This document shows positions 42,499 through 64,000 of a DNA stretch of 64,000 nucleotides, in pieces. The notes below the pieces were generated by a model that saw only the letters and a list, made by a program, of their open reading frames with translations, had not been told where the DNA came from and did not search any database. The position numbers and the translations under genes were made by a program. The first letter of the stretch is position 1. Each line of letters opens with the position of its first letter. The DNA is from Phocaeicola coprocola DSM 17136 (GTDB taxonomy: Bacteria; Bacteroidota; Bacteroidia; Bacteroidales; Bacteroidaceae), in NCBI RefSeq assembly GCF_000154845.1, contig NZ_DS981461.1:12402-76401 (forward strand). Reading direction: 5' to 3'.

Positions 42499-42911
42499 AA
42501 GCCTAAATCAAATAATGAGGGTTGGGGTTGGTTTTCTTTTCTCGCTGACGGTCTGTGGCGGTTCTGCAACTTGCGGAGTTCCTCCTCTTGGTATTTGCGG
42601 ACAGCGTTCTGACGTGCCTCCGCCTTTTCCTCTGCCGTGAGTTTCACAACGTGGTTCACAACCACTTGGCAGTCCATCGGTTTGCCCACCTCTATCTCGT
42701 TTTCCTCATAGTAGTGGATGGCTTGCCCGAATATCTCTCCGTCCGTGAAACCGTTGCAACCGCTTTTCTGCACATAGTTCAGAATGTGGGTCACGCACTC
42801 GTCCATGTTCTTGGCAGGGTTGCGGTACTTCTTTGCAAATAGCGCATCTTCCTCCGCACGCTGTTCCAAGTACATATATATCGTTCTCTTGAAATGGTCT
42901 GTTCCTTTCAT
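42495..42911 (-). CDS. PcfK-like protein
   Basis: 138 residues. MKGTDHFKRTIYMYLEQRAEEDALFAKKY at the start and the NMDECVTHILNYVQKSGCNGFTDGEIFGQAIHYYEE core fit the PcfK-like family, which pairs with PcfJ. The C-terminal third is charged and disordered-looking and ends with QPSLFDLGL, a motif resembling the QxSLFDL sliding-clamp binding peptide. The 4-base overlap with the PcfJ gene suggests coupled expression. Confidence 0.8.
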   Translation of the reverse strand: MKGTDHFKRTIYMYLEQRAEEDALFAKKYRNPAKNMDECVTHILNYVQKSGCNGFTDGEIFGQAIHYYEENEIEVGKPMDCQVVVNHVVKLTAEEKAEARQNAVRKYQEEELRKLQNRHRPSARKENQPQPSLFDLGL

Positions 42912-44166: not shown

Positions 44167-44705
44167 TTTTACGGAAAATTCTTATGAATGAGGGGATAAA
44201 AAACGGGAGTTTATATCAAAATCTCGAATTAAATAGCTACTTTTGCATACGAAGAGTTCTTTGAAGGTTACGCAACGCGCAGAAGGATAATGCAGTAGAT
44301 AACTAACTAAATCGTAACCTATTACTATCAAGAGCAATTAACCTACGCTCATTTCCAATAAATTACACTCTTTTCGTAACTTCAGCCTGCAAATATACAC
44401 TTTACTTGTGACAAAAGCAATCTTTTTCTACATTTAATCGACTTACAGTCAGCCTTAAAGAGGGTATCTGGTCTCATTCCATCTTCTTCCTCAAAAATAA
44501 CATAGCAGTCTAAATTGGTTTATGTATGGGATAGGTCTTGTTCATTCGATCCGGTAGACTACTATACATAAAAGTATAAAGGCGAGATACGACAAGGAGA
44601 TGCCATGCTTTTGTGTAAGGGGAATCTCTCTTAGCTTATCGCAGACCATGTATAGCTAAGTGTTTTGAGAATAAACAGTCTGTAAAAAACGGAAAGACAC
44701 CGATT
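44167..44705. other. Intergenic stretch upstream of the integrase remnant
   Basis: TACTTTTG at 44238-44245 is an exact -7 box on the plus strand, without a clear -33 TTG. A GGTTACG/CGTAACC inverted pair is present near 44265 and 44310. No gene is seen. The N-terminal coding part of the integrase (GKTPIMGR frame) is open back to about 44655 but lacks a good start. Confidence 0.35.
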
Positions 44706-45975
44706 ATGGGCCGTATCACCATCAATGGAACCCAAGCCGGTTTCAGTTGTAAGAAAGAAGTGTCCCTCGCTTTGTGGGACGTCAAAACCAACCGGGCCAA
44801 AGGCAAGTCCGAGGAGGCCCGTACACTCAATCAGGAGCTTGACAATATCAAGGCGCAAATCACCAGGCACTACCAGTACATCTGCGACCACGACAGTTTT
44901 GTTACAGCCAAGAAAGTCTATAACCGCTATGTCGGCTTCTCAGAGGAATGCCACACCCTTATGAACCTTTTCAGGGAACAGCTGGAACCGTATAAAAAGA
45001 AAATCGGCATAGAGAAAGCCGAAAGCACCTACTGCGGTCTGGTTGCCGATTACAAGAGTCTCCTGCTTTTCATGAAAAGCAAGAAGAATGCAGAGGATAT
45101 TGTCATCGAAGAACTTGAGAAATCATTCATCGAGGATTACTACAACTGGATGCTCGGTACATGCGCTTTGGCAAACTCCACTGTCTTCGGGCGTGTCAAT
45201 ACCTTGAAGTGGCTGATGTATATCGCGCAGGAAAAAGGCTGGATACGGGTTCATCCGTTCGCATCATTCGAGTGTATGCCCGAATACAAGAGGCGTTCTT
45301 TCCTTTCCGAAGAGGAACTGCAAAGGATAATCCATATAGAACCGAGATACAAACGCCAGCGTGCCATGCGCGACATGTTCCTGTTCATGTGCTTCACCGG
45401 TCTTTCCTATGTGGACTTGAAAGCCATAACATACGATAATATCCATACCGACTCCGACGGCGGTACATGGCTGATGGGCAACCGTATAAAAACGGGAGTG
45501 GCGTATGTCGTAAAATTATTGCCCATTGCTATCGAACTGATTGAAAAATATAGGGGTACGGATGAAAAGAAAGACTCCCCGAATGTGTCTTTCCGGTAGG
45601 TGAATACAATGCCATGCGGCTCAGTCTTGGAATCATAGGCAGGAAATGCAACTCCGGGGCGAGGTCACCCCGCACATCGGACGCCACGCATTTGCCGTTC
45701 TGGCCATACTCAAGGGGATGCTGCTGGAAACTCTTCAGAAAGTGTTTGGGCATAAGTCCATCACATACGTCCTGCGCATCCATTCACTTGTCCGGCGCAG
45801 GCGGGGCAATCTTTTTCTGGAAGTCGCCCATCTGTACGACCAGCGTGCTGACCAGCTTTCTCAACTCCTAATACGCGCTTGTTTCAATAATTGTCAGTTC
45901 CATACTAAAATTCTTTTTAAGATTCTGAATATGCGACAAAGTAACGCACATCCTATATCCTTTCCAAACAGATAA
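44706..45975 (+). pseudogene. Tyrosine recombinase (integrase), frameshifted
   Basis: Typical parts of a Bacteroidota tyrosine integrase are present: arm-binding segment (GRITINGTQAGFSCK), SAM-like core-binding domain (about 100-200) and catalytic domain with the Arg box (FMCFTGLSYVDLKAITYDNI). The frame ends at 45599 with SFR and a stop. The expected continuation (CVFPVGEYNAMRLSLG) is in another frame, and the HIGRHAFAVLAILKGM...FGHKSI box (HxxR...GH) is in a third, at 45646 onward. The catalytic Tyr segment after it is not recognisable. The N-terminus also seems short. At least two frameshifts make an active enzyme unlikely, so this end of the element may be immobile. Confidence 0.8.
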
Positions 45976-49486: not shown

Positions 49487-51577
49487 ATGAAAATTTATTT
49501 TCTTCCCATGCTCCTATCCTTGTTCTTTTTGGGAGCGTGTGACAAAAACGATGAAATTATACCTGAAGATGCAGATGAAAATTTCATCACATCGGTCGTG
49601 ATGACCGTGGACGGGAAATCGTACACGGCCGACATTACGGACAATACAGTAACAATAACCGTTCCCTATACGGTATCGCTGAACAACGCCGAAGTGGAAT
49701 TCAAGTACACAACTTCTGCAACAATCATACCTGATCCTGAAACGGTAACGGACTGGGATAACGAACGAACCTTCCGGGTGACATCCTATAACGGAGATGC
49801 CCGCGAATATACCTATAAGGTCGTGAAAAGCGAGATAGAATCTGACGGAGATGTGGAGTTGAAGACCACCGAGGAGGTAGCTTCTTTTGCCGCAACCAAA
49901 ACAACCGTTGTCAAAGGGAACCTGATTATCGGCTCTGATGCGGAAGAGGCAGAAAAAATCACTGACATATCTGCATTGGCATCTTTGAAAGAGGTTACTG
50001 GCAACATTGTCATTCGTAACAGTTACAACGGTGCAGACTTGACAGGGTTGGATAATATCGTTTCTGCCGGAGGTTTACAGGTAGGTTCGACCGATGTCGC
50101 CTCGAAAGCTACGGAACTTCACATGATTTCCATGAAAGCATTGGAAACGCTCTCCGGAGACATATCGGTATATAACGACCAAGTGACGTATGTCCTATTC
50201 GAGAAACTGGCAACTATTGAAGGAAGCGTGATGTTCAATGCGTCGTCGTTACAGAGTTTTGAGTTTCCGGTTCTGACTACTGTAGGTCAGGATCTGAATC
50301 TTCAAGGACTCAATGAAGAGAACACAGCAGCCGGTTCGATTGCGTCTTTGGAAATACCGGAACTGACAAGTGTCGGAGGGGTCTTGTCCGTAAACAATCT
50401 TGCCAAGCTGACTTCCATGAGCTTCCTTAAGCTGAAAGAGACCGGTGGCCTTGATTTCCATACCGTCCCCGTGATGTTGGAAACCATCAACCTTCCGGAA
50501 ATCGAAACAGTAAACGGAAGTATTATTATGGAAGCCAATATGGAAGCTCCTCCTACCGGTAGTTTTGTTCCCCAACGAAATGACGTGCTTCAGGCTTTCG
50601 GTGGAATGGACAAACTGACAACGATAAAGGGACAGATAAAGATAAAGAATTTCACGGCACTCAAACAACTTCCCGACTGGAGCAAGATCACCACACTTGG
50701 AAGCATCACGCTGGATTATCTTGAAGATGTGAGCGGAACACTGCTGTTGCCGAACGCCCGATTTGAAACCTTCGGAGAAACAGCGCCCCAGATTGAAATT
50801 ATAAACAAGGTGCAGCTCTCCAAAATTGAAACAGCCGAAGATTTGTCAAATGTAAATTTTGTCATCACCAGTCTCACGAATAATAAGTTCCCTGAAATCA
50901 CGTTCAAGAATATCAAAGACTTCACTTGTAAGCCAACCACCAACAATATCGATTATACCATATCGACAATTCAACATGTATATGGAAATCTAAATGTGAC
51001 AGGCCAAATGCGAAGCAATGCCAAATTTCCCGACTTGGAAATCATAGATGGATATGGATATATCCAAATACCCATGTTTGCTTCAATCACAATGCCAGTC
51101 TTGAAAGAAGTGGGAGGACAGTTCTATTTATCTGGAAATTTTACCAGTTGTAACTTGCCCTTACTATCCAAAGTTTGTTGTTCAGCTTCTCCTGTATATT
51201 ATAAAGAGGGAGAGGGTTCGTTAGCAATATCTTTGCAAAGTAAATCGCTGGATATTCCGGAATTGCTTCACGTAGGAGGTGAAGGGTTGTTCGTTAATAA
51301 AGCAACAGGCATTACTTGTGATAAATTACAGACTATAGATGGTACGCTACAGATAAAAAGTGCGACTTCTCTTTCTCAGGAAACACTTTCCATGGAGAAG
51401 TTGGAGACCTTGCATGGGGTTGTTTTTGACGGTTTGACGAAATTTACCGACTACACTTTCTTCGGCAAGTTTATAGAAAACGGAATGATTACGGGGGAAA
51501 GTTGGAGCGTGACGAAATGTGGGTATAACCCAACCTTCCAAAATATGAAGGACAAACAATATACGCAGCAGGATTAA
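49487..51577 (+). CDS. Leucine-rich/receptor-L-like surface lipoprotein in the B12 operon
   Basis: 696 residues, lipobox FLGAC. The N-terminal Ig-like domain (about 25-115, SVVMTVDGKSYTADITDNTVTITVPYTV) is of DUF5018 type. From about 125 there are many irregular leucine-rich units of the receptor-L type (for example ITDISALASLKEVTGNIVI, FPVLTTVGQDLNLQGL, LETINLPEIETVNGSIIM), forming a long solenoid. It is probably surface-exposed. Its link to B12 uptake rests on the operon position. A terminator-like hairpin follows 16 bases after the stop. Confidence 0.65.
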   Translation: MKIYFLPMLLSLFFLGACDKNDEIIPEDADENFITSVVMTVDGKSYTADITDNTVTITVPYTVSLNNAEVEFKYTTSATIIPDPETVTDWDNERTFRVTSYNGDAREYTYKVVKSEIESDGDVELKTTEEVASFAATKTTVVKGNLIIGSDAEEAEKITDISALASLKEVTGNIVIRNSYNGADLTGLDNIVSAGGLQVGSTDVASKATELHMISMKALETLSGDISVYNDQVTYVLFEKLATIEGSVMFNASSLQSFEFPVLTTVGQDLNLQGLNEENTAAGSIASLEIPELTSVGGVLSVNNLAKLTSMSFLKLKETGGLDFHTVPVMLETINLPEIETVNGSIIMEANMEAPPTGSFVPQRNDVLQAFGGMDKLTTIKGQIKIKNFTALKQLPDWSKITTLGSITLDYLEDVSGTLLLPNARFETFGETAPQIEIINKVQLSKIETAEDLSNVNFVITSLTNNKFPEITFKNIKDFTCKPTTNNIDYTISTIQHVYGNLNVTGQMRSNAKFPDLEIIDGYGYIQIPMFASITMPVLKEVGGQFYLSGNFTSCNLPLLSKVCCSASPVYYKEGEGSLAISLQSKSLDIPELLHVGGEGLFVNKATGITCDKLQTIDGTLQIKSATSLSQETLSMEKLETLHGVVFDGLTKFTDYTFFGKFIENGMITGESWSVTKCGYNPTFQNMKDKQYTQQD

Positions 51578-51593
51578 ACCTTATACCTTAACC

Positions 51594-51626
51594 AGAGTAC
51601 CCGTAATGATTCGGGTACTCTTTTTT
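51594..51626 (+). terminator. Intrinsic terminator inside the B12 operon before btuG
   Basis: AGAGTACCCG (51594-51603) pairs perfectly with CGGGTACTCT (51612-51621), loop of 8, then T-run. It overlaps an in-frame ATG at 51606, which makes the ATG at 51633 the better start for btuG. Confidence 0.7.
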
Positions 51627-51632
51627 ATCCGA

Positions 51633-52706
51633 ATGACAATGAGCAGAACAATACAACGGATTTGCCTTTTTCTTTTCTGCCTGCCAGTTTTCGGCAGTTG
51701 CATGAAATGGGATTACGGAGAGATGGAAGATTTCTCTGTATCGGCCTCTGGTCTTTTCATTACCAACGAGGGGAATTTCCAGTACAGCAATGCCACGCTT
51801 TCCTACTACGATCCCGCCACGTGCGAAGTGGAGAATGAAGTGTTTTACCGTGCCAACGGGTTCAAGTTGGGCGATGTGGCCCAGTCTATGGTTATCCGGG
51901 ACGGTATAGGCTGGATCGTGGTGAACAACTCGCATGTGATTTTCGCCATCGACATCAATACTTTCAAGGAAGTGGGCCGTATCACAGGTTTCACCTCACC
52001 CCGGTATATCCATTTTCTGTCGGATGAGAAAGCCTATGTGACGCAGATATGGGACTACCGTATCTTCATCATCAACCCCAAGACATACGAGATTACCGGC
52101 TATATCGAATGTCCAGACATGGACATGGAATCGGGTTCCACCGAACAAATGGTACAATACGGCAAGTACGTCTATGTGAACTGCTGGTCGTACCAGAACC
52201 GCATCCTGAAAATCGACACGGAGACGGACAAGGTCGTGGACGAACTGACCATCGGCATACAACCTACTTCGCTGGTCATGGACAAATACAACAAGATGTG
52301 GACCATCACGGATGGCGGTTACGAGGGCAGCCCATACGGTTACGAGGCACCGTCTCTCTATCGTATAGACGCCGAGACTTTCACCGTAGAGAAACAGTTC
52401 AAGTTTAAGCTGGGCGACTGGCCTTCGGAAGTCCAGCTCAACGGTACACGGGATACACTTTACTGGATCAACAACGATATTTGGCGAATGCCGGTGGAAG
52501 CCGACCGTGTTCCCGTCCGGCCTTTTCTGGAGTTTCGGGACACCAAATACTACGGCCTTACGGTCAATCCCAACAACGGGGAGGTATATGTGGCCGACGC
52601 TATTGATTACCAGCAACAAGGTATCGTGTATCGCTATTCGCCGCAAGGCAAGCTGATCGATGAATTTTACGTGGGAATCATTCCGGGAGCTTTCTGCTGG
52701 AAATAA
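51633..52706 (+). CDS. btuG: BtuG, B12-binding beta-propeller surface lipoprotein
   Basis: 357 residues from the ATG at 51633; a farther ATG at 51606 lies inside the terminator hairpin. The lipobox is VFGSC, followed by an acidic YGEMEDF stretch. Seven YncE-like propeller blades can be followed (GLFITNEGNFQYSNATLSYYD; GWIVVNNSHVIFAIDINTFKEVGRI; KAYVTQIWDYRIFIINPKTYEITGYI; KYVYVNCWSYQNRILKIDTETDKVVDEL). BtuG is known to bind cobalamin extremely tightly and to sit on BtuB. It is 18 bases before btuB. Confidence 0.88.
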   Translation: MTMSRTIQRICLFLFCLPVFGSCMKWDYGEMEDFSVSASGLFITNEGNFQYSNATLSYYDPATCEVENEVFYRANGFKLGDVAQSMVIRDGIGWIVVNNSHVIFAIDINTFKEVGRITGFTSPRYIHFLSDEKAYVTQIWDYRIFIINPKTYEITGYIECPDMDMESGSTEQMVQYGKYVYVNCWSYQNRILKIDTETDKVVDELTIGIQPTSLVMDKYNKMWTITDGGYEGSPYGYEAPSLYRIDAETFTVEKQFKFKLGDWPSEVQLNGTRDTLYWINNDIWRMPVEADRVPVRPFLEFRDTKYYGLTVNPNNGEVYVADAIDYQQQGIVYRYSPQGKLIDEFYVGIIPGAFCWK

Positions 52707-52724
52707 CGAGGAAGGAGGACAAAA

Positions 52725-54803
52725 ATGAAAAGACATCTTATTCTATTGTTCGTGGGGGTAAGCCTGCCCTTTCTGCTTGCCGCCCAGCAGAAAAATTCCG
52801 TCAGCATTACCAAAAGGGTACTACGTATTCCGGAGGTTACGGTGGTGGGCAAACGACCTATGAAGGATATAGGCGTGCAACGAACCCGTTTCGATTCCAT
52901 CGCCATGAAAGAGAACATCGCCTTGTCTATGGCCGATGTGCTGACATTCAACTCATCCGTTTTTGTCAAGAACTACGGACGCGCCACGTTATCCACCGTG
53001 GCTTTCCGGGGTACCTCTCCCTCGCATACCCAAGTGACGTGGAATGGTATGCGCATTAACAACCCGATGCTGGGCATGACGGATTTTTCCACCATCCCTT
53101 CTTACTTTATCGATGATGCCTCGCTGCTGCACGGAACGTCATCGGTAAACGAAACGGGCGGCGGCTTGGGTGGTCTGGTCAGGCTCTCCACTTCTCCGGC
53201 CAACCATGAAGGGTTCGGGTTGCAGTACGTGCAGGGAGTGGGGTCGTTCAGCACGTTCGACGAGTTTCTCCGCCTGACCTACGGTGACAAACACTGGCAG
53301 TCCTCCACCCGTGTGGTGTATTCCTCTTCCCCCAACGACTACAAATACCGAAACCGGGACAAGAAGGAAAACATCTATGACGAGGACAAGAACATCATCG
53401 GTTCCTATTACCCGACGGAACGCAACCGCAGCGGGGCTTATAAGGATCTGCACGTCTTGCAGGAAATTTATTATAACACGGGCGAAGGCGACAAGTTCGG
53501 GCTAAACGCCTGGTATATCAATTCTAACCGGGAACTGGCGATGCTCAGCACGGATTACGGGAACGACATGGACTTCGAGAACCGCCAAAGGGAGCAGACG
53601 TTTCGCGGCGTCCTCTCGTGGGATCGCGTGCGGGAGAAATGGAAGGTCGGTGTAAAAGGCGGCTATATACACACATGGATGGCCTATGATTACAAGCGGG
53701 ACAAGGGAAACGGCGAAATGGCTTCGATGACCCGCTCACGCAGTAAGATTAACACGTTCTACGGAAGTGCGGACGGGGATTATGCTCCTTCAGAGAAATG
53801 GCTGTTCACGGCCGGTGTTTCCGTACACCAGCATTTGGTGGAAAGCGCGGACAAAAATATCATCTCGCAGGAAGGTAACAAGGCTGTTGTCGGGTATGAC
53901 AAGGGACGTGTCGAGTTTTCCGGTTCCGTTTCTGCGAAATGGCGGCCTGTCGATCGTTTTGCCGCCTCGCTTGTCCTTCGCGAGGATATGTTCGGTACGG
54001 AATGGGCCCCGGTTATCCCGGCTTTCTTCATCGACGGGGTACTGTCGAAAAAAGGCAATATCGTGGCGAAAGCATCCATCTCCCGGAACTACCGTTTTCC
54101 CACGCTGAACGACCTCTATTTTCTGCCGGGCGGTAATCCCGACCTGAAAAGCGAGCACGGCTTCACATACGACGTGGGGTTGTCGTTCTCGGTGGGGAAA
54201 GAAAATGTATATGCTTTGAGCGGTGGTATCAACTGGTTCGATTCGCACATCGACGACTGGATCATCTGGCTACCCACAACCAAGGGATTCTTCTCCCCCA
54301 GAAACCTCAAAAAGGTACATGCTTACGGGGCAGAGACCAACGCCCACCTTGATATAATGCTCGGAAAGGACTGGAAACTGGATATGAACGGAACTTTCTC
54401 GTGGACTTCCTCGATCAACGAGAGCGAACCGATGAGTCCGGCAGACCAATCCGTCGGCAAACAGTTGCCATACGTGCCGGAGTTTTCCGCAACGGTGACC
54501 GGACGTCTGTCATGGCGGACATGGAGCCTGCTTTACAAATGGTGTTATTACAGCCAGCGTTATACCATGTCGAGTAATGACTATACCCTGACGGGCTATC
54601 TGCCCCCTTACTTCATGAATAACGTGACACTGGAAAAACAGCTCTCTTTCCGATGGGCCGATCTGTCGCTAAAGGGCAGCATCAACAACCTGTTCGATGA
54701 AGAATACCTTTCCGTATTGTCCCGTCCCATGCCGGGCATCAATTTCGAGATATTCATCGGCATAACACCCAAGTTCGGAAAAAACAAAAATAGTAAACGA
54801 TAA
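52725..54803 (+). CDS. btuB: BtuB, TonB-dependent cobalamin outer-membrane transporter
   Basis: 692 residues with a signal peptide (MKRHLILLFVGVSLPFLLAAQ). There is a TonB-box-like EVTVVGKRP (about 43-51), a plug domain (about 60-170: SSVFVKNYGRATLSTVAFRGTSPSHTQVTWNGMRIN) and a 22-strand barrel (SLKGSINNLFDEEYLSVLSRPMPG near the end). The barrel is without the SusC-type N-terminal extension, as expected for BtuB. Directly behind btuG and ahead of btuFCD. The assignment rests strongly on context plus the TonB receptor fold. Confidence 0.9.
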   Translation: MKRHLILLFVGVSLPFLLAAQQKNSVSITKRVLRIPEVTVVGKRPMKDIGVQRTRFDSIAMKENIALSMADVLTFNSSVFVKNYGRATLSTVAFRGTSPSHTQVTWNGMRINNPMLGMTDFSTIPSYFIDDASLLHGTSSVNETGGGLGGLVRLSTSPANHEGFGLQYVQGVGSFSTFDEFLRLTYGDKHWQSSTRVVYSSSPNDYKYRNRDKKENIYDEDKNIIGSYYPTERNRSGAYKDLHVLQEIYYNTGEGDKFGLNAWYINSNRELAMLSTDYGNDMDFENRQREQTFRGVLSWDRVREKWKVGVKGGYIHTWMAYDYKRDKGNGEMASMTRSRSKINTFYGSADGDYAPSEKWLFTAGVSVHQHLVESADKNIISQEGNKAVVGYDKGRVEFSGSVSAKWRPVDRFAASLVLREDMFGTEWAPVIPAFFIDGVLSKKGNIVAKASISRNYRFPTLNDLYFLPGGNPDLKSEHGFTYDVGLSFSVGKENVYALSGGINWFDSHIDDWIIWLPTTKGFFSPRNLKKVHAYGAETNAHLDIMLGKDWKLDMNGTFSWTSSINESEPMSPADQSVGKQLPYVPEFSATVTGRLSWRTWSLLYKWCYYSQRYTMSSNDYTLTGYLPPYFMNNVTLEKQLSFRWADLSLKGSINNLFDEEYLSVLSRPMPGINFEIFIGITPKFGKNKNSKR

Positions 54804-54814
54804 TCTGCATCAAT

Positions 54815-55954
54815 ATGAACGCATTAAAGAATTTAAGCCTGATTTTGTTGCTTTCTCTGGCATTTACAGGCTGCCACAACAAAAGCTCAAAAATCAATGA
54901 TTTCAACCTGCTGCTTTATGCTCCCGAATATGCCTCCGGCTTCGACATCAAAGGGGCGGGCGGGAAGGAAAGCGTACTGATAACCGTCAGGAATCCCTGG
55001 CAGGGAGCGGACAGTGTAACCACATGGCTGTTTATCGTCCGCAACGGTGAAGAGGTTCCCGAAGGGTTTGCAGGACAGGTACTCAAAGGAGACGCCAAAC
55101 GCATCGTGGCGATGTCTTCCACTCATATCGCCATGCTTGACGCAATCGGTGAAGTCCGGTGTATAACCGGCGTTTCGGGAATCGACTACATTTCCAACCC
55201 AGACATCCAAGCCCGCCGCGACAGTATTGGCGATGTCGGCTATGAAGGGAACATCAACTACGAGTTGCTGCTCTCGCTCGATCCCGACCTCGTTCTGCTC
55301 TATGGGGTGAACGGCGCAAGCGCAATGGAAAGCAAACTCGAAGAACTCGACATACCGTTCATGTATGTCGGCGATTATCTTGAAGAGTCGCCTCTCGGCA
55401 AGGCCGAATGGATGGTAGTGCTTTCAGAAGTCACAGGAAAACGTGAGAAGGGTGAAAAAGCCTTTGCCGCAATCCCGGTCAGATACAACGCCTTGAAAAA
55501 GAAAGTGGCCGACAGTACCCTCGGCACTCCTTCGGTTATGCTTAATGTTCCCTATGGCGACTCGTGGTTCATGCCTTCAACCCAAAGTTATGTAGCCCGC
55601 TTGATTACTGATGCGGGAGGCCGCTATATCTACCAGAAGAACACGGGAAACGCTTCTATCCCCATTGACTTAGAAGAAGCATATCTGCTCGCGTCGGATG
55701 CGGACATGTGGCTGAACGTGGGAATGGCGAACTCCCTTGACGACTTGAAGGCATCATGTCCGAAATTCACCGATACCCGATGTTTCAAAAATGGAGAGGT
55801 GTATAACAACAACGCCCGTACCAACACAGCCGGGGGTAACGACTATTACGAGTCTGCCGTCGTGAATCCTGACATCGTGCTCCGCGACCTCGTGAAGATA
55901 TTCCATCCTGAACTGGTGCAGGAAGAGTGTGTGTATTACAAGCAACTGAAATAG
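54815..55954 (+). CDS. btuF: BtuF, cobalamin ABC-transporter binding lipoprotein
   Basis: 379 residues, lipobox AFTGC. Periplasmic-binding-protein type III features: RIVAMSSTHIAMLDAIGEV, SLDPDLVLLYG, and IPFMYVGDYLEESPLGKAEWM. It should bring cobalamin to BtuC in the inner membrane. The stop abuts the btuC ATG (55955) without a gap. Related iron-siderophore binding proteins share the fold; the btu context decides the call. Confidence 0.88.
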   Translation: MNALKNLSLILLLSLAFTGCHNKSSKINDFNLLLYAPEYASGFDIKGAGGKESVLITVRNPWQGADSVTTWLFIVRNGEEVPEGFAGQVLKGDAKRIVAMSSTHIAMLDAIGEVRCITGVSGIDYISNPDIQARRDSIGDVGYEGNINYELLLSLDPDLVLLYGVNGASAMESKLEELDIPFMYVGDYLEESPLGKAEWMVVLSEVTGKREKGEKAFAAIPVRYNALKKKVADSTLGTPSVMLNVPYGDSWFMPSTQSYVARLITDAGGRYIYQKNTGNASIPIDLEEAYLLASDADMWLNVGMANSLDDLKASCPKFTDTRCFKNGEVYNNNARTNTAGGNDYYESAVVNPDIVLRDLVKIFHPELVQEECVYYKQLK

Positions 55955-56935
55955 ATGCGTTCCCGTTCGACTATATTATTCTCCATATTGATTACGCTCA
56001 CGGTCGGTCTTTTTTTACTGGACTTGGCCGTGGGAGCTGTCAACATTCCGATCCGCGATGTATGGGCAGCACTGACCGGGGGAAATTGTTCCCGTGCCAC
56101 GGAAAAAATCGTACTCAACATACGCCTCATAAAAGCTATAGTGGCACTGTTGGCCGGGGCTGCCTTATCGGTCAGCGGTCTTCAGATGCAGACCCTCTTC
56201 CGTAATCCTCTTGCCGGTCCCTATGTCCTTGGCATCAGTTCCGGTGCAAGTCTCGGTGTGGCACTTGTGGTACTTGCCGGGATCGGTTCATCAATAGGCA
56301 TTGCCGGAGCAGCGTGGGTGGGTGCGGCTGTCGTGTTGCTCGTGATAACTGCCGTCGGACAGCGAATAAAAAACATCATGGTAATCCTGATTCTGGGCAT
56401 GATGTTCTCATCGGGCGTAGGTGCTGTCGTGCAGATATTGCAGTACCTCAGCAAAGAGGAATCGCTGAAAGCCTTTGTCATTTGGACGATGGGGGCTTTG
56501 GGTGACGTCACCTCCGGACAACTTCTGATTCTTGTTCCATCGGTGTTTGCCGGACTGCTGTTGGCGGTACTGACCATCAAACCGCTTAACCTCCTGCTGT
56601 TCGGAGAGGAATATGCCGTAACAATGGGACTGAATATTCGGCGTTCACGCAGCCTGTTGTTTCTCTCGACAACGCTGCTCGCCGGAACGATAACCGCTTT
56701 TTGCGGTCCGATAGGTTTCATAGGTCTCGCTATGCCTCATGTCACAAGAATGCTTTTCCAAAATAGTGATCATCATGTCCTTCTGCCCGGAACAATTCTT
56801 TCGGGAGCATCGATATTGCTTCTTTGCGACATCATTTCTAAAATATTCACCTTGCCGATCAACGCCATTACAGCTCTATTGGGAATCCCAATCGTCGTAT
56901 GGGTGGTTTTACGCAACAAATCCATCACCGCATGA
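55955..56935 (+). CDS. btuC: BtuC, cobalamin ABC-transporter permease
   Basis: 326 residues, FecCD family. About ten hydrophobic helices. Family landmarks are IRLIKAIVALLAGAALSVSGLQMQTLFRNPLAGPYVLGISSGASLG near the start and GFIGLAMPHVTRML...LLPGTILSGASILLLCDIISK near the end. It forms the inner-membrane channel with BtuD. Its stop overlaps the btuD start (ATGA at 56932). Confidence 0.9.
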   Translation: MRSRSTILFSILITLTVGLFLLDLAVGAVNIPIRDVWAALTGGNCSRATEKIVLNIRLIKAIVALLAGAALSVSGLQMQTLFRNPLAGPYVLGISSGASLGVALVVLAGIGSSIGIAGAAWVGAAVVLLVITAVGQRIKNIMVILILGMMFSSGVGAVVQILQYLSKEESLKAFVIWTMGALGDVTSGQLLILVPSVFAGLLLAVLTIKPLNLLLFGEEYAVTMGLNIRRSRSLLFLSTTLLAGTITAFCGPIGFIGLAMPHVTRMLFQNSDHHVLLPGTILSGASILLLCDIISKIFTLPINAITALLGIPIVVWVVLRNKSITA

Positions 56936-57690
56936 TAGAATTACAGCATTTTTCCATAGGTTACAAAGAAAACTCGTTGCTCCACGAGGTAAATGCCACG
57001 ATAAAAAAAGGTCAACTGACAGCCCTTATCGGAAGAAACGGGACAGGAAAATCGACGTTGCTCCGCGCCATAGCCGGTCTGAACCGGTGTTATTCCGGAA
57101 AAATCATTCTCGACGGGCACGACATCGCCTGCATGAAAACCGAAGATATGGCAAAAACGCTGGCTGTCGTCACGACCGAGCGCACGCGCATCGCCAACCT
57201 GCGGTGCAAGGATGTCGTAGCCATAGGCCGTGCTCCTTATACCAACTGGATAGGTAGGATGCAAGAAACAGATAAGGAGATAGTCATGCAATCGCTCATT
57301 TCGGTGGGAATGGAGGCTTATGCAAACCGCACGATGGATAAAATGTCGGATGGCGAATGCCAGCGTGTGATGATTGCTCGTGCATTGGCACAGGATACTC
57401 CTATCATTCTCCTTGATGAACCGACTTCCTTTCTTGACATGCCTAATCGCTACGAACTTGTGGCGTTGCTTCGTAGGCTTGTCCACGACGAGAAAAAATG
57501 TATCATGTTCTCGACACATGAACTTGACATCGCGTTGTCCATGTGCGATTCGATAGCATTGTTAGATACCCCGAATTTAAGTTGCTTGACCGCGTCTGAA
57601 ATGCAGAAAAGCGGATACATTGACAGACTTTTCCAAAATGAAAACATCCGTTTCGACTCCTTATGCGGTACAATGATTTTGAAACAATGA
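56932..57690 (+). CDS. btuD: BtuD, cobalamin ABC-transporter ATPase
   Basis: 252 residues from the ATG at 56932, which overlaps the btuC stop. Walker A is GRNGTGKST (34-42), the signature is MSDGECQRVMIARAL, Walker B is IILLDEPTSFLD and the H-loop is FSTHELD. It powers cobalamin import through BtuC. An upstream GTG/ATG extension within btuC (56899) is less likely. The stop overlaps the next start. Confidence 0.9.
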   Translation: MIELQHFSIGYKENSLLHEVNATIKKGQLTALIGRNGTGKSTLLRAIAGLNRCYSGKIILDGHDIACMKTEDMAKTLAVVTTERTRIANLRCKDVVAIGRAPYTNWIGRMQETDKEIVMQSLISVGMEAYANRTMDKMSDGECQRVMIARALAQDTPIILLDEPTSFLDMPNRYELVALLRRLVHDEKKCIMFSTHELDIALSMCDSIALLDTPNLSCLTASEMQKSGYIDRLFQNENIRFDSLCGTMILKQ

Positions 57691-58253
57691 GTATATACAC
57701 TGTAGAAAATTTTACTTCAGACATCACTGTTGAAGGATATATCGCCGAATTCCGTGACGAACCACATTTTCTTGAACTTTGCAAACAATGTACCAATTAC
57801 GGTAAAAGTTGGGGGTGTCCTCCATTTGATTTTGATACGGAATCGTTTCTCCGACAATACAAGTATGCACATCTTATGGCAACGAAGATAATCCCTGAAG
57901 ACAAAGATATTCCGATTGAATATACACAAAAACTCATTTTACCGGAACGGATACGAATCGAGAGCGAATTATTGGATATGGAGCGGAAATATGGAGGGCG
58001 TTCATTTGCCTATATAGGTAAATGTCTTCACTGCTCAGATAACGAGTGTACGCGTAACTGCGGCACACCATGCCGACACCCGGAAAAAGTGCGTCCGTCA
58101 CTCGAAGCCTTCGGATTTGACATAGCCAAAACGCTTTCTGAACTTTTTAACATCGAACTTCTTTGGGGAAAGGATGGCAAATTACCTGAATATCTTGTTC
58201 TCGTAAGCGGATTTTTTCATAATGAATACGAACTTTGCAACATAGCATACTAA
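57687..58253 (+). CDS. DUF2284 Cys-rich metal-binding protein
   Basis: 188 residues from the ATG at 57687, which overlaps the btuD stop (ATGA). Cys motifs are CKQCTNYGKSWGCPPF (about 33-48) and CLHCSDNECTRNCGTPCRHPEKVRPSLEAFGFDI (about 113-146), typical of DUF2284 and suited to iron-sulfur or other metal binding. Its coupling to btuD suggests a role in corrinoid handling after import, such as reduction or remodelling. This is inference. It is the last gene of the operon. Confidence 0.8.
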   Translation: MSIYTVENFTSDITVEGYIAEFRDEPHFLELCKQCTNYGKSWGCPPFDFDTESFLRQYKYAHLMATKIIPEDKDIPIEYTQKLILPERIRIESELLDMERKYGGRSFAYIGKCLHCSDNECTRNCGTPCRHPEKVRPSLEAFGFDIAKTLSELFNIELLWGKDGKLPEYLVLVSGFFHNEYELCNIAY

Positions 58254-58370
58254 TGATTCGGACATGAAATAAACAGACAAACTAACCACATTCGGTTCAA
58301 TCTGTTTTGTGATTTCAAATGAATTATAGTTAGATATGTAAAAAGCGACGCTGGAGCTTGAAATAAGTAA

Positions 58371-58450
58371 CGGTTTATCGGTGTATTCTCCGTTAAACCG
58401 TCCTGTTTTCGTTAAACGAAAACACAACTTGCTGTCCCCTAATGGGGACA
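58371..58450. repeat. Three small palindromes after the B12 operon
   Basis: CGGTTTA/TAAACCG (about 58372-58400), GTTTTCGTTAAACGAAAAC (58405-58423, nearly perfect) and TGTCCCC/GGGGACA (58433-58450) follow each other. They may end the btu transcript or serve as protein-binding sites. No gene lies between 58254 and 58647. Confidence 0.5.
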
Positions 58451-58647
58451 ACATTCTCCAATAGGAATTGTGTATCAGCCTATTGTACGGTTATTCTCCT
58501 GTGATTTTCGGGTCATTTCCATCAGGCATTTGCCGGCTGCTCTCCCCATAAAAAGGTGGCTATCTCTCCTGAATCATGTGACTTACGCCCATAATTCAGG
58601 AATAAGGGAGACGTATGTACTGGAAATCTGCCCTTTCCATACCCTAT

Positions 58648-59710
58648 TCTCCATTAATGGATTGTTATTTTTACACATCTGCAAATGGAGAATGACAGGT
58701 AGCCGTATACGCCTTATTGTTTTTCTTCATTGTCTCCATTAACGGATTGCTACTTCTACACTTCTGCAAATGAAGAATGTGCATGTAACCGTGTATGTCT
58801 TATGGTTTCTTTTCCTTGTCTCCATTGATGGATTGATACTTCTACACTTCTGCAAATGGAGAGCGGCAGTGAGCCGTATATGCTTCATGGTTTTTCTACA
58901 TTATCTCCATTAATGGATTGCTACTTCTACACTTCTGCAAATGGAGAAATGGACATGTAGCCGTATATGCTTCATGGTTTTCTGCATTATCTCCATTAAT
59001 GGATTGCTACTTCTACACTTCTGCAAATGGAGAAATGGACATGTAGCCGTATATAGTTCATTGTTTTTTTCATCGTCTCCATTAACGGATTGCTACTTCT
59101 ACACTTCTGCAAATGGAGAATGACAGGTAGCCGTGTATGTCTTATGGTTTCTTTTCCTTGTCTCCATTGATGGATTGCTACTTCTACACTTCTGCAAATG
59201 GAGAACGTGCAGGTAGCCGTGTATGACTTATGGTTTCTTTTCCTAGTCTCCATTGATGGATTGCCACTTCTACACTTCTGCAAATGGAGAATGGGCAGGT
59301 AGCCGTATACACCTTATTGTTTTTCTTCCTTGTCTCCTTTGATGGATTGCTACTTCTACACTTCTGCAAATGGAGAATGGGCATGTAACCGTGTATGTCT
59401 TATGGTTTCTTTTTCTAGTCTCCATTGATGGATTGCTACTTCTACACTTCTGCAAATGGAGAACGTGCAGGTAGCCGTGTATGACTTATGGTTTTTCTTC
59501 ATTGTCTCCATTAACGGATTGCTACTTCTACACTTCTGCAAATGGAGAATGGCAGGTAGCCGTATATGCCTTATTGTTTTTTTTCATCGTTTCCATTAAC
59601 GGATTGCCACTTCTACACTTCTGCAAATGGAGAACGTGCAGGTAGCCGTGTACGCCTTATGTTTTTTTCTTCCTTGTCTCCATTAACGGATTGATATTTT
59701 TACACTTCCA
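58648..59710. repeat. Non-coding tandem array of ~86-bp units, 12 full copies and one partial
   Basis: Units start at 58648, 58733, 58819, 58904, 58990, 59076, 59161, 59247, 59333, 59419, 59505, 59590 and 59677, with a period of 85-87 bases. Each unit has a conserved half of about 44 bases, from TCTCCATT through GGATTGCTACTTCTACACTT to CTGCAAATGGAGA, whose ends are inverted repeats (TCTCCATT/AATGGAGA). The other half is more variable (GTAGCCGT, TATGGTTT or TTATTGTTTTT). The period is mostly not a multiple of 3, so the short frames over it are not protein repeats. Confidence 0.9.
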
Positions 59711-60036
59711 CAGACCGATAATCCAAGAATCCGTATCAGGACGGATGCATGCTCCCACACCTGCCCATAAGGATTTGAAAGGGGCGGTGGACAAGGAACG
59801 GAATCCCGCCACTTTTCCACGCCGCTACGGACAGCAGGATTCTGACGTCACTCCCGCATGGGAAGAAGCATCCGGATGGAACCATATGTTCGTCCCCACC
59901 ATCATGTGTATCATGACAATAAACGACTTTGGATGACTATAAGCGACAGGTGGTTCCGTCCTGTCCTCTTCTTTCTTTATTTTGTATTCCGAAACAATGC
60001 CAGTTGTGTAATTTAATAAATTAAGATTTTAAGACA
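59711..60036. other. Intergenic region before the DUF3408-ParA genes
   Basis: About 325 bases without a convincing gene; the 81-residue frame at 59691-59936 starts inside the repeat array and has no domain. A promoter for the downstream genes is expected, but no exact -7 box was found. Confidence 0.4.
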
Positions 60037-60453
60037 ATGGATTCAGAAAAGGAAAAGAACCGGCTTTCCGATATCGTTCTCGAGAGGGTCGGACTCACGG
60101 GAAACCTTCTGTCAGCTCCCGTTTCCCCATCCCCGGAACCGGCGGTGGGTATGCCGGGGCATGAAAGGCAGGTCCGTGCAGGGAAAGTGACAGCCCCGGA
60201 AGAATACAAGAGGAGGTTTCTTGTTCCCGCTCCCAAGTCTGTGGAGTGGAAGACCGCGTATATTGACGGGAGGCTGCACCGCCGGATCGCCATGCTGGTC
60301 AGGGCCGCCGGTTGCGGCAGCATCTCCGGGTTTATCATCCGGCTGCTGGAGCTCCATATGGAGGAGCACAGGGAGGATATCGCCGCCCTGCTCGGTGAGG
60401 TCTACCGTCCCTGGGATGAGGACGGACAGCGTGGAGGAACGGCCCGCCGATAA
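60037..60453 (+). CDS. DUF3408-family conjugative-element protein
   Basis: 138 residues. After a disordered N-terminal half, the C-terminal part (YKRRFLVPAPKSVEWKTAYIDGRLHRRIAMLVRAAGCGSISGFIIRLLELHMEEHREDI) fits DUF3408, which has a ribbon-helix-helix-like look with LHRRI as the start of a helical DNA-binding core. It is 29 bases before a second member of the family. Such genes accompany ParA-like TraA genes in Bacteroides conjugative transposons. Confidence 0.75.
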   Translation: MDSEKEKNRLSDIVLERVGLTGNLLSAPVSPSPEPAVGMPGHERQVRAGKVTAPEEYKRRFLVPAPKSVEWKTAYIDGRLHRRIAMLVRAAGCGSISGFIIRLLELHMEEHREDIAALLGEVYRPWDEDGQRGGTARR

Positions 60454-60482
60454 AATGTTGTCATTGTCCAAGAAGATATATC

Positions 60483-60869
60483 ATGACAGGAAAGAACGTA
60501 AAAGACCGGATTGGTCCCGGCGGGATGGACGCGGACCGCATCCGTGAGATCATGGGGGAAGCACCTGCCTGTCCCCGGAAGGGACGTGGAATGTCCGGTA
60601 ACGACATAATGCGTCCCGCAAGGAAAAGCGGCCCCATGCAGCCGTCCGTCTATGGGGAGGAATACCTGCGTGGCATTGCGGGCGTGCAGCGCCGGTCACT
60701 GCATATTCCTGCCGCCCTGCACCGGAAACTGTCCATCCTGGCGGGAGCCTCGAGAAATGGGAAGGTCACGCTGGAGGGGTTCATCAACCACCTTGTCTCG
60801 CGGCATCTGGAAGAATACAGGGAAACGGTGGAGATGATTCTGGAAGAGTCCCTGCCCGGCCGGTCATAA
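60483..60869 (+). CDS. DUF3408-family conjugative-element protein, second copy
   Basis: 128 residues. The C-terminal part (YLRGIAGVQRRSLHIPAALHRKLSILAGASRNGKVTLEGFINHLVSRHLEEYRETV) is related to the previous protein (LHRKLSILAG versus LHRRIAMLVR), suggesting an old duplication. The N-terminal half is basic and low in structure. It is 27 bases before the ParA gene. Confidence 0.72.
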   Translation: MTGKNVKDRIGPGGMDADRIREIMGEAPACPRKGRGMSGNDIMRPARKSGPMQPSVYGEEYLRGIAGVQRRSLHIPAALHRKLSILAGASRNGKVTLEGFINHLVSRHLEEYRETVEMILEESLPGRS

Positions 60870-60896
60870 TAGTGTTTAACATTTAATGCAAGAAGT

Positions 60897-61685
60897 ATGA
60901 TGAAAAAAGAAAAAGAGTTGTTGGTTGCCGTCGCCAGCCAGAAGGGTGGCGTGGGAAAATCCGTCTTTACGGTACTGCTGGCCAGTGTGCTGCATTACCG
61001 CAAAGACCTGCGTGTGGCGGTTGTGGACTGTGACTACCCGCAGCACAGCATCGCCCTGATGCGTGAGAGGGACATGGAGAGTGTCATGAAAAATGACGAC
61101 CTGAAGGTGAGCCTTTACCGGCAGCACGAGAGAATCCGGAAGCTTGCCTATCCGGTCATCAAAAGCGATCCGGAAAAGGCGGTGGAGGACCTGCGTCGTT
61201 ATATGGACGAAAAGGGGGAAACTTTCGATATCGTGCTTTTCGACCTTCCCGGAACGCTCCGCAGCGAGGGGGTGGTCTATACTGTTGCTGCGATGGACTA
61301 CATTTTCATCCCGATCAAGGCGGACAACATCGTCATGCAGAGTTCCCTGCAGTTTACCAAGGCTCTGGAAGAGGAGTTGGTCTCCAGGAAGAACTGCAAC
61401 CTGAAAGGGACCTGGCTGTTCTGGAACATGGTGGACAGGCGGGGGCGGAAGGATTTGTATGACGCCTGGAACCGGGTCATCGACAAGATGGGGCTGCGGC
61501 TGCTGTCCTCACACATTCCGAACACCCTCCGCTACAACAGGGAGGCGGCCCCTGTCTGCAAGGGTGTCTTCCGCTCCACGCTGTTTCCACCCGATCCCCG
61601 TCAGGAGAAAAGCTCCGGCCTTCCTGAACTGGTGGAGGAGATATGCCGTACCATCGGCCTGGAGGAATCCGATACCGACCGGTAG
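60897..61685 (+). CDS. ParA-family ATPase (TraA-like)
   Basis: 262 residues. The deviant Walker A is SQKGGVGKSVF (about 15-25), with VAVVDCDYPQHS (Walker A' region) and a FDIVLFDLPGT Walker B. These are typical of ParA/MinD-type ATPases. Two starting Met codons are adjacent (60897 and 60900). In Bacteroides conjugative transposons a ParA-like protein (TraA) sits at the edge of the transfer region. It may position DNA or partner proteins, here possibly with the DUF3408 pair. The intron insertion begins just after its stop. Confidence 0.85.
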   Translation: MMKKEKELLVAVASQKGGVGKSVFTVLLASVLHYRKDLRVAVVDCDYPQHSIALMRERDMESVMKNDDLKVSLYRQHERIRKLAYPVIKSDPEKAVEDLRRYMDEKGETFDIVLFDLPGTLRSEGVVYTVAAMDYIFIPIKADNIVMQSSLQFTKALEEELVSRKNCNLKGTWLFWNMVDRRGRKDLYDAWNRVIDKMGLRLLSSHIPNTLRYNREAAPVCKGVFRSTLFPPDPRQEKSSGLPELVEEICRTIGLEESDTDR

Positions 61686-61699
61686 CGGATGTCAGGGTA

Positions 61700-63629
61700 G
61701 TATGCTCGGCATGAGTATTAGCTAACGGGTGCAAGTCCCCAATGAGCCCTAATAGCGGGAATCATACAGCCAATAGCAAGGGTGTCCATCGTGAGGTGGA
61801 ATCTGAAAGAAGCTGGCGGCAAACATCTGGTCTGACGAACAGAAACTTCATATAAGGCATAAAAACCGTGGGTAAGGTTGCTACCCAAACCAAAGCCCTA
61901 TAGCTATTCGGAACGGTTAATGTAGATGAAGCAGACATAAGATTGAAAGTTAATACCCTTATCCGAGGAGGTCTCACGGACGCATGAAAATAGAAAAAAA
62001 TCGAAATCAGCGGAGTAAAGCTTGCCGTGAGAAGTCAGCAGAAGTCATAGTAGCAAACGAGCCGATAGGTTTGCGAAGGACTGAACCTAATAATTAAACG
62101 ATAGTAATTGAAACATACCTAATGAAAGAACGAATGCAGAAAACATTATCCGAAGTTAATGACTGCCCTCAAAGAGATAGGTCGGAAACCGAATGGTATG
62201 AGGGAGTGCAGACTTTCATGTGGATATGTGAAGACAACATCGTGGAAGTACCATTCGACAAGGAACACCTTTTCGAGCAAATCCTGAGTCCTGCGAACCT
62301 AAACCGATCCTATAAGGCAGTGATTGGAAACAAGGGCTGTGGCGGTATCGACAATATGTCATGTGAACAATTGTTTTTATGGCTATTAGCCAACAAAGAT
62401 GCGCTCATCCGTTCCTTGATGGACGGTTCTTACCGTCCGAACCCCGTCAAAAGGGTAGAAATCCCCAAGGACAATGGCAAGATGCGTCTATTAGGAATCC
62501 CCACTGTGGTAGACCGTTTGGTGCAACAAGCCATTAACCAAGTTCTGAGTCCTATATATGAGAAACAATTCTCCAGGAGAAGTTATGGCTTCCGTCCGAG
62601 AAGAGGTTGTCATGACGCGGTGAGAGGAGCCCAAGAGATAATCAATACAGGCTACACGTACGTTGTAGACCTTGACCTTGAACGCTTCTTCGATACCGTG
62701 AACCATAGCAAACTCATAGAAATTCTCAGCCGTACTATTAAAGACGGCAGAGTTGTCAGTCTGATACACAAATATCTCCGAAGCGGTGTAATGAACAAAG
62801 GTCTGTTCGAAGTGAGCGAGGAAGGAACTCCCCAAGGAGGACCACTAAGTCCATTGTTAAGTAATATTATGCTCAATGAGCTGGACAAGGAACTCGAACG
62901 CAGAGGACTTCCTTTTGTGCGGTATGCCGATGACTCGATGATATTCTGTAAGTCCAAAAGGGCAGCAAGAAGAGTCAAAGAGTCCATAACCCGATTTATA
63001 GAGGGAACTCTATATCTTAAAGTCAACAAGGAAAAGACTGTAGTATCGTATGTTCGAGGAGTGAAGTATCTCGGTTATTCCTTTTATGTAATGAAAGGCA
63101 AATATCGCCTTACAGTACACCCTAAATCCAAAGCAAAGATGAAATTGAGCCTCAAAGAGCTGACTAATCGTAGCAATGGATGGGGATACGTCAAGAGGAA
63201 ACAGAAGCTGAAAGATTACATACGTGGGTGGATTGGATACTATCACCTTGCCGATATGAAACGCTTTCTTCTTGACACAGATGAGTGGTTAAGACGTAGA
63301 ATACGTATGTGTATATGGAAAGCTTGGAAGAAACCCAAGACCAAGGTGGGGAACCTCATTAAATGCGGTATAGAAAAATATAAGGCATGTGAATGGGGTA
63401 ACACTCGCAAAGGTTATTGGCGTATCGCTGACAGTCCTATATTGAAAGTGGCGATAAATAATGATAGCCTGCGAAAAGCAGGATATCCTACCTTAATGGG
63501 CTCGTATCTCGAATGGTACCCAAAATAGGAACCGCCGTATGCCGAACGGCACGTACGGTGGTGTGAGAGGTCGGTGAACATGAAAATAGGAGATAAACAC
63601 CTATGATTAATGTTTACCTCCTACTCGAT
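61700..63629 (+). mobile_element. Group II intron 2 (5' boundary approximate)
   Basis: The RNA part starts near 61700 (GGGTGCAAGTCCC at about 61728) and contains GTCTGACGAACAGAAAC and GAAGTCAGCAGAAGTCATAGTA. Domain V is ACCGCCGTATG...CACGTACGGTGGT (about 63531-63563), and domain VI ends CTACTCGAT (63621-63629). It is of the same general class as intron 1 but clearly different in sequence. It lies directly behind the ParA gene. Confidence 0.8.
62122..63528 (+). CDS. Group II intron reverse transcriptase/maturase
   Basis: 468 residues. Reverse transcriptase blocks are GNKGCGGIDNMSCEQL, RLLGIPTVVDRLVQQAI, YGFRPRRGCHDAV, TPQGGPLSPLLSNIMLNELDKEL and the catalytic YADD (FVRYADDSMIFCKS). The maturase domain follows (YIRGWIGYYHLADMKRFL; WLRRRIRMCIWKAWKKPKTK). 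No HNH endonuclease is visible. It has an N-terminal extension of about 50 residues compared with the protein at 38153. It is intact. Confidence 0.92.
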   Translation: MKERMQKTLSEVNDCPQRDRSETEWYEGVQTFMWICEDNIVEVPFDKEHLFEQILSPANLNRSYKAVIGNKGCGGIDNMSCEQLFLWLLANKDALIRSLMDGSYRPNPVKRVEIPKDNGKMRLLGIPTVVDRLVQQAINQVLSPIYEKQFSRRSYGFRPRRGCHDAVRGAQEIINTGYTYVVDLDLERFFDTVNHSKLIEILSRTIKDGRVVSLIHKYLRSGVMNKGLFEVSEEGTPQGGPLSPLLSNIMLNELDKELERRGLPFVRYADDSMIFCKSKRAARRVKESITRFIEGTLYLKVNKEKTVVSYVRGVKYLGYSFYVMKGKYRLTVHPKSKAKMKLSLKELTNRSNGWGYVKRKQKLKDYIRGWIGYYHLADMKRFLLDTDEWLRRRIRMCIWKAWKKPKTKVGNLIKCGIEKYKACEWGNTRKGYWRIADSPILKVAINNDSLRKAGYPTLMGSYLEWYPK

Positions 63630-63762: not shown

Positions 63763-64000
63763 ATGAACGAGCAAATCAGAAACATTTTAGTACAAGAAAC
63801 GACAAAGACGAGCAAGATCCGGCAACTGTATCTTCTGGGTGTTCCCCGTGCGGAAATCGCGAGAATGGTGACCAACGGAAACTACGGCTTTGTAGTGAAT
63901 GCCCTGCGCCGGATGAGGGAACGTGAGGGCGGTCCGAACGTTCAACCGTTGGCAGCCGCACCGGATTACACTTTCAACCGCAAGTTCGGTATCGAGATCG
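63763..64000 (+). CDS. Probable amidoligase-family protein, 3' end outside window
   Basis: The frame begins with the ATG at 63763 and is open to the window end (79 codons). The first about 50 residues look like a helix-turn-helix segment (KTSKIRQLYLLGVPRAEIARMVTNGNYGFVVNALRRM). It then reads YTFNRKFGIEIE-type sequence (FNRKFGIEI visible), which I associate with the start of the amidoligase fold. A strong Shine-Dalgarno AAGGAGG (63747-63753) lies 9 bases before the ATG, unusual for Bacteroides. The family call is tentative because most of the protein is missing. Confidence 0.5.
   Translation, partial: MNEQIRNILVQETTKTSKIRQLYLLGVPRAEIARMVTNGNYGFVVNALRRMREREGGPNVQPLAAAPDYTFNRKFGIEI

Follow-up and report, generated by a model that had tools for sequence, protein, structure and literature searches.

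A tandem array of 86-bp units beside a predicted CTnDOT-type origin of transfer in Phocaeicola coprocola as a candidate iteron site for ParA/DUF3408 proteins

INTRODUCTION

In the gut, CTnDOT-type ICEs are among the major vehicles of gene transfer. Their transfer operon is headed by ParA and DUF3408 genes, to which, to our knowledge, no role has been assigned. Type I partition loci combine ParA with a ribbon-helix-helix centromere-binding protein (omega, ParG) and an iteron centromere, and the known type Ib centromeres are built from iterons of 7–11 bp.

For CTn341, a conserved oriT, an inverted repeat, and a nick site have been mentioned (PMC5729914). In Agrobacterium, the ParA-like ATPase VirC1 is described as bringing the relaxosome to the cell pole (PMC4949242), and SGI1 is reported to carry sequences that mimic parS and exploit the ParABS system of the helper plasmid (PMC10954446). 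MTnPi1 to MTnPi3 of Prevotella intermedia are mobilizable transposons with two tandem tyrosine integrases (PMC4755523, PMC5704250).

Here, we describe a tandem array of 86-bp units in a 64,000-nt stretch of the genome of Phocaeicola coprocola DSM 17136 (the whole stretch is hereafter called the window). The locus shares with the oriT region of what we take to be the CTnDOT/CTn341 family (mobABC, oriT, ParA-DUF3408-TraE-F-G; gene names as annotated in the records) the CGACNNNGGAG motif, the hairpins, the inverted repeat before ACANCTTGCT, and the place before the ParA/DUF3408 operon. Unlike that region, however, it has no adjoining mob genes, carries 86-bp units in place of short iterons, and shows the gene order DUF3408-DUF3408-ParA rather than ParA-DUF3408. 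As in type I partition loci, a ParA-family ATPase and small proteins are encoded beside a tandem-repeat site, but the units measure 86 bp rather than 7–11 bp and are thus not short repeats, the array lies at an oriT, and the DUF3408 fold is predicted with low confidence only (protein 2; mean pLDDT of 49.7 in two predictions), with no ribbon-helix-helix match found for DUF3408 in PDB or Pfam. With the VirC1/VirC2-overdrive system, the window shares a ParA-like ATPase, a candidate small partner, and a candidate cis enhancer adjoining the predicted transfer origin; overdrive is a short element, unlike the array, and the Pfam match of the window's ParA to VirC1 falls below the cut-off (E = 0.029; 14.1 of 24 bits). 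SGI1 is likewise a mobilizable element with a cis site for a partition system possibly supplied in trans, but there the helper's parS is mimicked, whereas the site proposed here is a distinct 86-bp repeat that often comes with a ParA gene beside it. Finally, elements with the array share with MTnPi1-3 a tandem int1-int2 pair and a TTAC next to one element end; MTnPi have relaxase and primase genes, whereas a search for PF03432, the one relaxase family sought, found none between the ends of four related elements (XA, XB, XD, and L061).

RESULTS AND DISCUSSION

An array of 86-bp units with a conserved core

Tandem Repeats Finder reported an array at 58648–59708 with a period of 86, 12.4 copies, and 85% matches, and an ungapped scan with the 44-bp core placed 13 unit starts 85–87 bp apart, which agrees with the count made in the first-pass annotation. 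The start given there (58648) holds, but its end (59710) falls short, since a degenerate 13th unit carries the array to ~59720 (Table 1). The array lies between the last gene of a B12-uptake operon (57663–58253, DUF2284) and the DUF3408-DUF3408-ParA genes (60037–61685). It had been called noncoding, and this is confirmed: the mixture of 85-, 86-, and 87-bp spacings breaks the reading frame, and the array is not spanned by any long frame.

Table 1. Features of the oriT-array-ParA region (window coordinates)
Feature	Position	Strand	Description
oriT-like block	58346..58449	+	CGACGCTGGAG motif 58346-58356; H1 58371-58400; inverted repeat H2 58405-58423; hairpin H3 58434-58449
Predicted nick	58431/58432	+	between ACAACTTG and CT; position by analogy
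Conserved noncoding stretch between oriT and array	58450..58647	+	seen only with the 86-bp array type, plus one array-less locus (L025, L047)
86-bp iteron array	58648..59720	+	12 complete units followed by a degenerate last one; 44-bp core (conserved) and TAGCCGTATA block
Array tail and 5′ region of DUF3408 operon	59721..60036	+	tail in 7 loci keeping DUF3408-ParA and in 0 others of 20 sequences scanned
DUF3408 protein 1, 138 aa	60037..60453	+	candidate array-binding protein; Pfam PF11888, 9.4e-9
DUF3408 protein 2, 128 aa	60483..60869	+	candidate array-binding protein; Pfam PF11888, 3.3e-8
ParA-family ATPase, 262 aa	60897..61685	+	Pfam AAA_31, CbiA, and others; PDB segregation protein 1wcv, 9.9e-6
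Next operon gene, start	63763..64000	+	runs beyond the window; parted from ParA by a group II intron (~61700-63629)

When 37 distinct full units taken from nine loci were compared, column conservation averaged 0.948 in the core versus 0.809 in the rest of the unit (permutation p = 1e-4), with 24 versus 7 invariant columns, so the division into a conserved 44-bp half and a drifting second half proposed earlier is borne out. Core similarity was 0.934 for units within one locus and 0.907 between loci, i.e., there is little homogenization, and these near-equal values speak against homogenization as the only cause of the conservation.

The core contains an 8-bp inverted repeat, TCTCCATT/AATGGAGA, with a 28-nt loop. 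This repeat is perfect in only 9 of the 13 units, and the claim that every unit carries a conserved hairpin must therefore be withdrawn. Single units fold weakly as DNA (z of −0.8 to −2.5 in six foldings of three units on both strands), and a search for compensatory change in the 8 stem pairs across 32 distinct cores returned no double changes, 6 wobble cells, and 11 broken cells. With no Rfam match found in the array and no covariation in its units, the option of a set of structured RNAs is not supported; the stem changes in the 32 cores are easier to reconcile with a DNA-binding inverted repeat than with an RNA hairpin. An 8-bp periodicity is present in the consensus unit (p = 0.0045; p = 0.011 over lags 6–12) but falls short of significance for one unit in a local test (p = 0.093).

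The same DNA occurs elsewhere in the P. coprocola genome (3 units; G000:C20), in 3 of 99 other relatives searched (own genome excluded), and in Bacteroides and Phocaeicola records. The number of units varies from 1 to 13 between loci, and so does the upstream gene cargo, which comprises the B12 operon, TonB/TPM genes, ABC exporters, or small lipoproteins (for unannotated genes, the kind was read from the ORFs). In the open-licence full-text literature searched, we found no description of the array or of ParA-linked iterons at CTnDOT-type oriTs.

A predicted CTnDOT-type oriT upstream of the array

Directly upstream of the array lies a structured block (58346–58449) that was absent from the first-pass annotation. 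In its pattern and neighbourhood, this block matches an origin of transfer (oriT) of a known kind, the CTnDOT type. The mobA-ParA gap of CTnDOT-type ICEs follows the same plan, namely CGACTYYGGAG, a hairpin, an inverted repeat, ACANCTTGCT, and a second hairpin. The pattern CGACNNNGGAG-N45-75-ACANCTTGCT, built from such gaps, matched the window once (58346–58433; 0 in 100 shuffles) and occurred in 34 of 99 genomes of one genus, taken as Bacteroides (reversed control: 1 of 99). Mob genes lay upstream of 24 and ParA downstream of 21 of the first 30 loci matching the pattern; when 70 of 75 matches were examined, 66 had no 86-bp units, and among these, 57 had mob genes no more than ~1.5 kb upstream and 50 had ParA downstream. 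The divergent mobA/mobB genes expected upstream were not found in the window, where the B12 operon takes their place, and none of four loci with the 86-bp array had mob genes within ~1.5 kb. The P. coprocola genome contains eight matches to the pattern, four of which have MobA, MobB, and ParA in their flank and are thus potential sources of a helper.

The first 100 bp of the leader (the ~270 bp preceding the array) form three hairpins, and three pairs in H2 and H3 are kept through two-sided changes, with one pair of H2 kept through a double change in one relative. On both strands, a 301-nt stretch around the leader folds better than every one of 100 shuffles (z of −4.0 and −5.7). In the window, H2 ends directly at ACANCTTGCT; in a test of bare stem length, the window's H2 (identical to that of L134) gave p = 0.059, and 14 of 35 distinct oriTs beat their shuffles at 0.05. 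The nick is presumed to lie as in other MOB_P origins. The whole leader, aligned in 13 loci, has a mean column identity of 88% and precedes the array wherever flank sequence covers it; its array-proximal stretch is absent from the relatives examined that carry CTATA-type repeats (see below), and the one array-less locus (L025/L047) retains the oriT but lacks both a full unit and ParA. The variable upstream flanks had suggested that the leader might be an element end (att), which we rejected because the ends lie inside tyrosine-recombinase genes and the leader matches a CTnDOT-type oriT. When viral contigs were scanned for exact matches to the H2-nick sequence, none turned up. Separately, an H1-H3 hairpin block with a different H3 loop was seen in another genome (G168; L048, 9902–9966), beside genes read as serving polysaccharide use.

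Two repeat types alternate between the oriT and the ParA operon

A relative (L112; G454:C32) matches the window at 99.8% identity along 8,432 bp (50024–58455). The shared stretch runs through the B12 operon and stops where the oriT ends, and past that point, short repeats of a CTATA type replace the 86-bp array. A second oriT copy in the same locus is followed by the same CTATA type and then by an amidoligase gene. In OY726000, the order is the hairpin block, CTATA-type repeats, amidoligase, ParA (64%), DUF3408, TraE, TraF, and the start of TraG. The periodicity test gave p = 0.013 (L062), 0.05 (first copy in L112), and 0.003 (second copy in L112) for the CTATA stretches, i.e., a borderline value in one copy. 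In B. xylanisolvens, by comparison, an 86-bp array of 5 units heads DUF3408, DUF3408, ParA, and amidoligase genes, followed by TraE-F-G-I-J homologues. Taken together, these arrangements indicate that the place between the oriT and the ParA operon is taken by one or the other of two unrelated repeat arrays, and that modules are swapped at the border of oriT and array.

Short iterons in the slot between oriT and ParA go with ParA

At a low score, Tandem Repeats Finder gave mostly iteron fragments, together with a 96-bp repeat in L112 (1.9 copies). We therefore tested for iterons by a diagonal score against dinucleotide shuffles, with a lowest period of 8 (6 in one run, on the CTATA stretches and the single unit). 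Short tandem repeats, mostly of 8 bp, were detected in 18 of 21 oriT-ParA gaps versus 2 of 21 stretches of mob coding DNA, and in none of six oriT loci without ParA in reach. With a fixed 450-bp gap applied to all 70 loci, and the four 86-bp-array loci set aside, 39 of 50 loci with ParA were positive versus 5 of 16 without it; many of these loci are related, and the counts are not independent events. After dereplication, the counts were 23 of 29 versus 3 of 11 (one-sided Fisher p = 0.0037). By these comparisons, iterons in the slot go with ParA at CTnDOT-type oriTs.

The five iteron-positive loci counted as ParA-less are L175, L178, L183, L188, and L199. L183 and L188 carry the amidoligase gene, which precedes ParA in OY726000, and L199 stops at a contig end; the ParA of these three may simply be out of reach, which does not apply to L175 and L178. 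Mob genes are upstream in all 50 ParA loci (39 positive), and 2 of the 7 other mob-bearing loci were positive (L178 and L199). Among loci with MobA and DUF3408 and no ParA (L121, L124, L136, L173, L178, and L194), only one of six was positive. The eight P. coprocola oriTs stand outside the 70-locus count; six were positive, namely three of the four with ParA, the window's own (through its leader, with a period of 11), L156, and L158, and the locus with the 3-unit array (L155) was negative. L156 and L158 (G000:C28 and C47) have the same matched sequence and strong 8-bp iterons, with no mob or ParA genes in their flank, which in L156 is cut by a contig end.

The DUF3408-ParA operon and loci carrying the array

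Among the 20 sequences scanned, all seven loci with both DUF3408 and ParA carry 86-bp units, with the array just upstream and in the same orientation. Close homologues with the same genes and no array, which had been named as a sign of a passive satellite, were thus not encountered; for three IMG/VR loci (L147, L149, and L150), the upstream sequence is too short to show an array. The comparison with homologues is less uniform among distant ParA relatives, of which 11 of 50 had no significant short iterons. In addition, at least six distinct loci have the 86-bp array with no close ParA/DUF3408 in the fetched flank (XA [L010], XB [L008], L006/L018, L046, L017, and L020 with its copies L049/L014).

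The gene that starts at 63763 is presumably an amidoligase, although NCBIfam gave no match for it. The group II intron that parts it from ParA (61700–63629) encodes a reverse transcriptase, and L009 and L011 are contiguous there. A second stretch (37760–38074) matches the same group II intron Rfam families.

Proposed role of the array

We consider it fairly probable that the 86-bp array is a cis-acting iteron site, centromere-like or overdrive-like, of the transfer origin of an integrative mobile element, serving ParA/DUF3408; put simply, proteins probably dock on the array and so aid the transfer or retention of the element. The idea of a partition or transfer site read by these proteins was already raised in the first-pass annotation. 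What speaks for it is the position of the array between a CTnDOT-type oriT and the ParA operon, in the slot where related ICEs often have short iterons that go with ParA; what speaks against it is the set of array loci without close ParA, for which a binding-site reading needs either the ParA of a helper or decay. Within this proposal, one or both DUF3408 proteins would bind the 44-bp core, and ParA would act on the DUF3408-core complex. The complex might then bring the element, nicked or circular, to the coupling protein of type IV secretion, in the style of VirC1/VirC2 and overdrive, or, alternatively, copies of the excised circle might be spread to daughter cells in the style of type I partition; both may apply. 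Since no mob genes adjoin the window's oriT, nicking would fall to the MobA/MobB of a resident CTnDOT-type element acting in trans, and the element is probably mobilized in this way. On the model of MOB_P origins, the array would be among the first sequences to reach the recipient. Further points count against the proposal: the number of units goes down to 1, L025/L047 has the oriT without array or ParA, units of 86 bp are unlike the iterons of type Ib centromeres, some ParA loci lack significant short iterons and some ParA-less loci have them, and the DUF3408 fold is predicted with low confidence.

The array could also be an operator whose units bind a DUF3408 repressor and only control transcription of DUF3408-ParA(-tra). 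In the seven loci that keep these genes, it directly precedes the operon and points the same way, which would suit such a function, and type Ib partition proteins commonly autoregulate; however, thirteen units over 1 kb far exceed the need, arrays persist where the operon was not found, and the short iterons track ParA and not DUF3408 alone (one of six loci with MobA and DUF3408 but no ParA). We regard this explanation as unlikely. Slightly less likely, in our estimate, is a relaxosome accessory array, in which a Mob accessory protein of the helper, or factors of the host, would bind the units and shape the oriT for nicking without ParA. That the array follows the oriT wherever the flank is covered and is kept where no ParA was found, as if a helper supplied the protein, is in keeping with this, but the iterons of other elements follow ParA, not mob, being present in 39 of 50 ParA loci and in only two of seven other mob-bearing loci (L178 and L199, the latter at a contig end).

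A functionless satellite grown by slippage beside the oriT is improbable, and we place it below both of these: although the variation from 1 to 13 units and the decayed look of some carrier elements (int2 fragments in L046 and L017) speak for it, the core is better conserved than the other half of the unit, homogenization within loci is slight, and unrelated iterons fill the same slot in many other ICEs. Very improbable is an array of structured RNAs or single-stranded-DNA hairpins (noncoding RNA or Frpo-like single-strand promoters of the leading region). The array would lie in the leading region if the nick is as predicted, and the oriT leader is strongly structured, but the units fold weakly one by one, the array matches nothing in Rfam, and the stems of the units show broken and wobble pairs with no double change.

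If the preferred reading, a ParA/DUF3408 iteron site, is correct, it may reach beyond this locus. It is a tentative proposal, to which we give somewhat less than an even chance, that an oriT-iteron-ParA/DUF3408 module coupling partition to transfer is standard in the conjugative elements of Bacteroidales, and that its iterons have here grown into 86-bp higher-order units that remain useful to mob-less cargo elements, such as B12-uptake islands, which would borrow the relaxase, ParA, and secretion system of a resident ICE. A ParA-linked cis site at oriT makes the role of ParA and DUF3408 directly testable, and it offers a simple sequence signature of elements without nearby relaxase genes that may be mobilized in trans.

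Host element: ends, integrases, and cargo

The first-pass annotation had also offered a recombination substrate as an option. The element ends of relatives lie elsewhere, beside intW and beyond int1, kilobases from the array, which speaks against this option, although modules are, as noted above, swapped at the border of oriT and array; an array of integrase arm-type or attachment sites, or of integron attC sites, was rejected for the same distance. The ends border interrupted tyrosine-recombinase genes. The border with N-terminal halves has the same end sequence in L011, L022, XA (L050/L051), and XD (L056–L058), and the C-terminal halves at the other end (XA, XB [L052/L053], and L061) begin at arginine-histidine codons that we take to be the catalytic motif of box II. 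Four different N-terminal and three different C-terminal halves border the element ends, and an integrase-gene-targeting element family is possible. XA, XB, and XD have a tandem int1-int2 pair, and B12, TonB, or iron cargo is found in several relatives. The window's own left element end is lost, with homology starting at 44388.

Several further observations concern the host element and its relatives. The recombinase gene interrupted in L050/L051 adjoins transfer genes of another ICE. B. bouchesdurhonensis (L050/L051 and L052/L053) has two copies of a 5,053-bp oriT-array-int2-int1 unit with 99.6% identity in different surroundings, which suggests recent movement. The integrase beside the window's B12 operon is split into two frames (44706–45599 and 45646–45975), as it is in L011 and L022 (100%), while the L025 record annotates its homologue (60% identity) as a single gene. 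Genes resembling PcfJ and PcfK lie at 41167–42911, left of the lost element end. NZ_OY725920 (L022/L023, PLSDB) is labelled a circular plasmid and carries chromosomal carB, guaB, and clpX; it looks like a mislabelled chromosomal contig, and the same may be true of its sister records L011, L025, and L049. Finally, L014 (MT835562, labelled Bacteriophage), L006/L061, and L147–L154 (including IMG/VR contigs) carry this conjugation-related DNA, and L148 and L153 begin inside the array.
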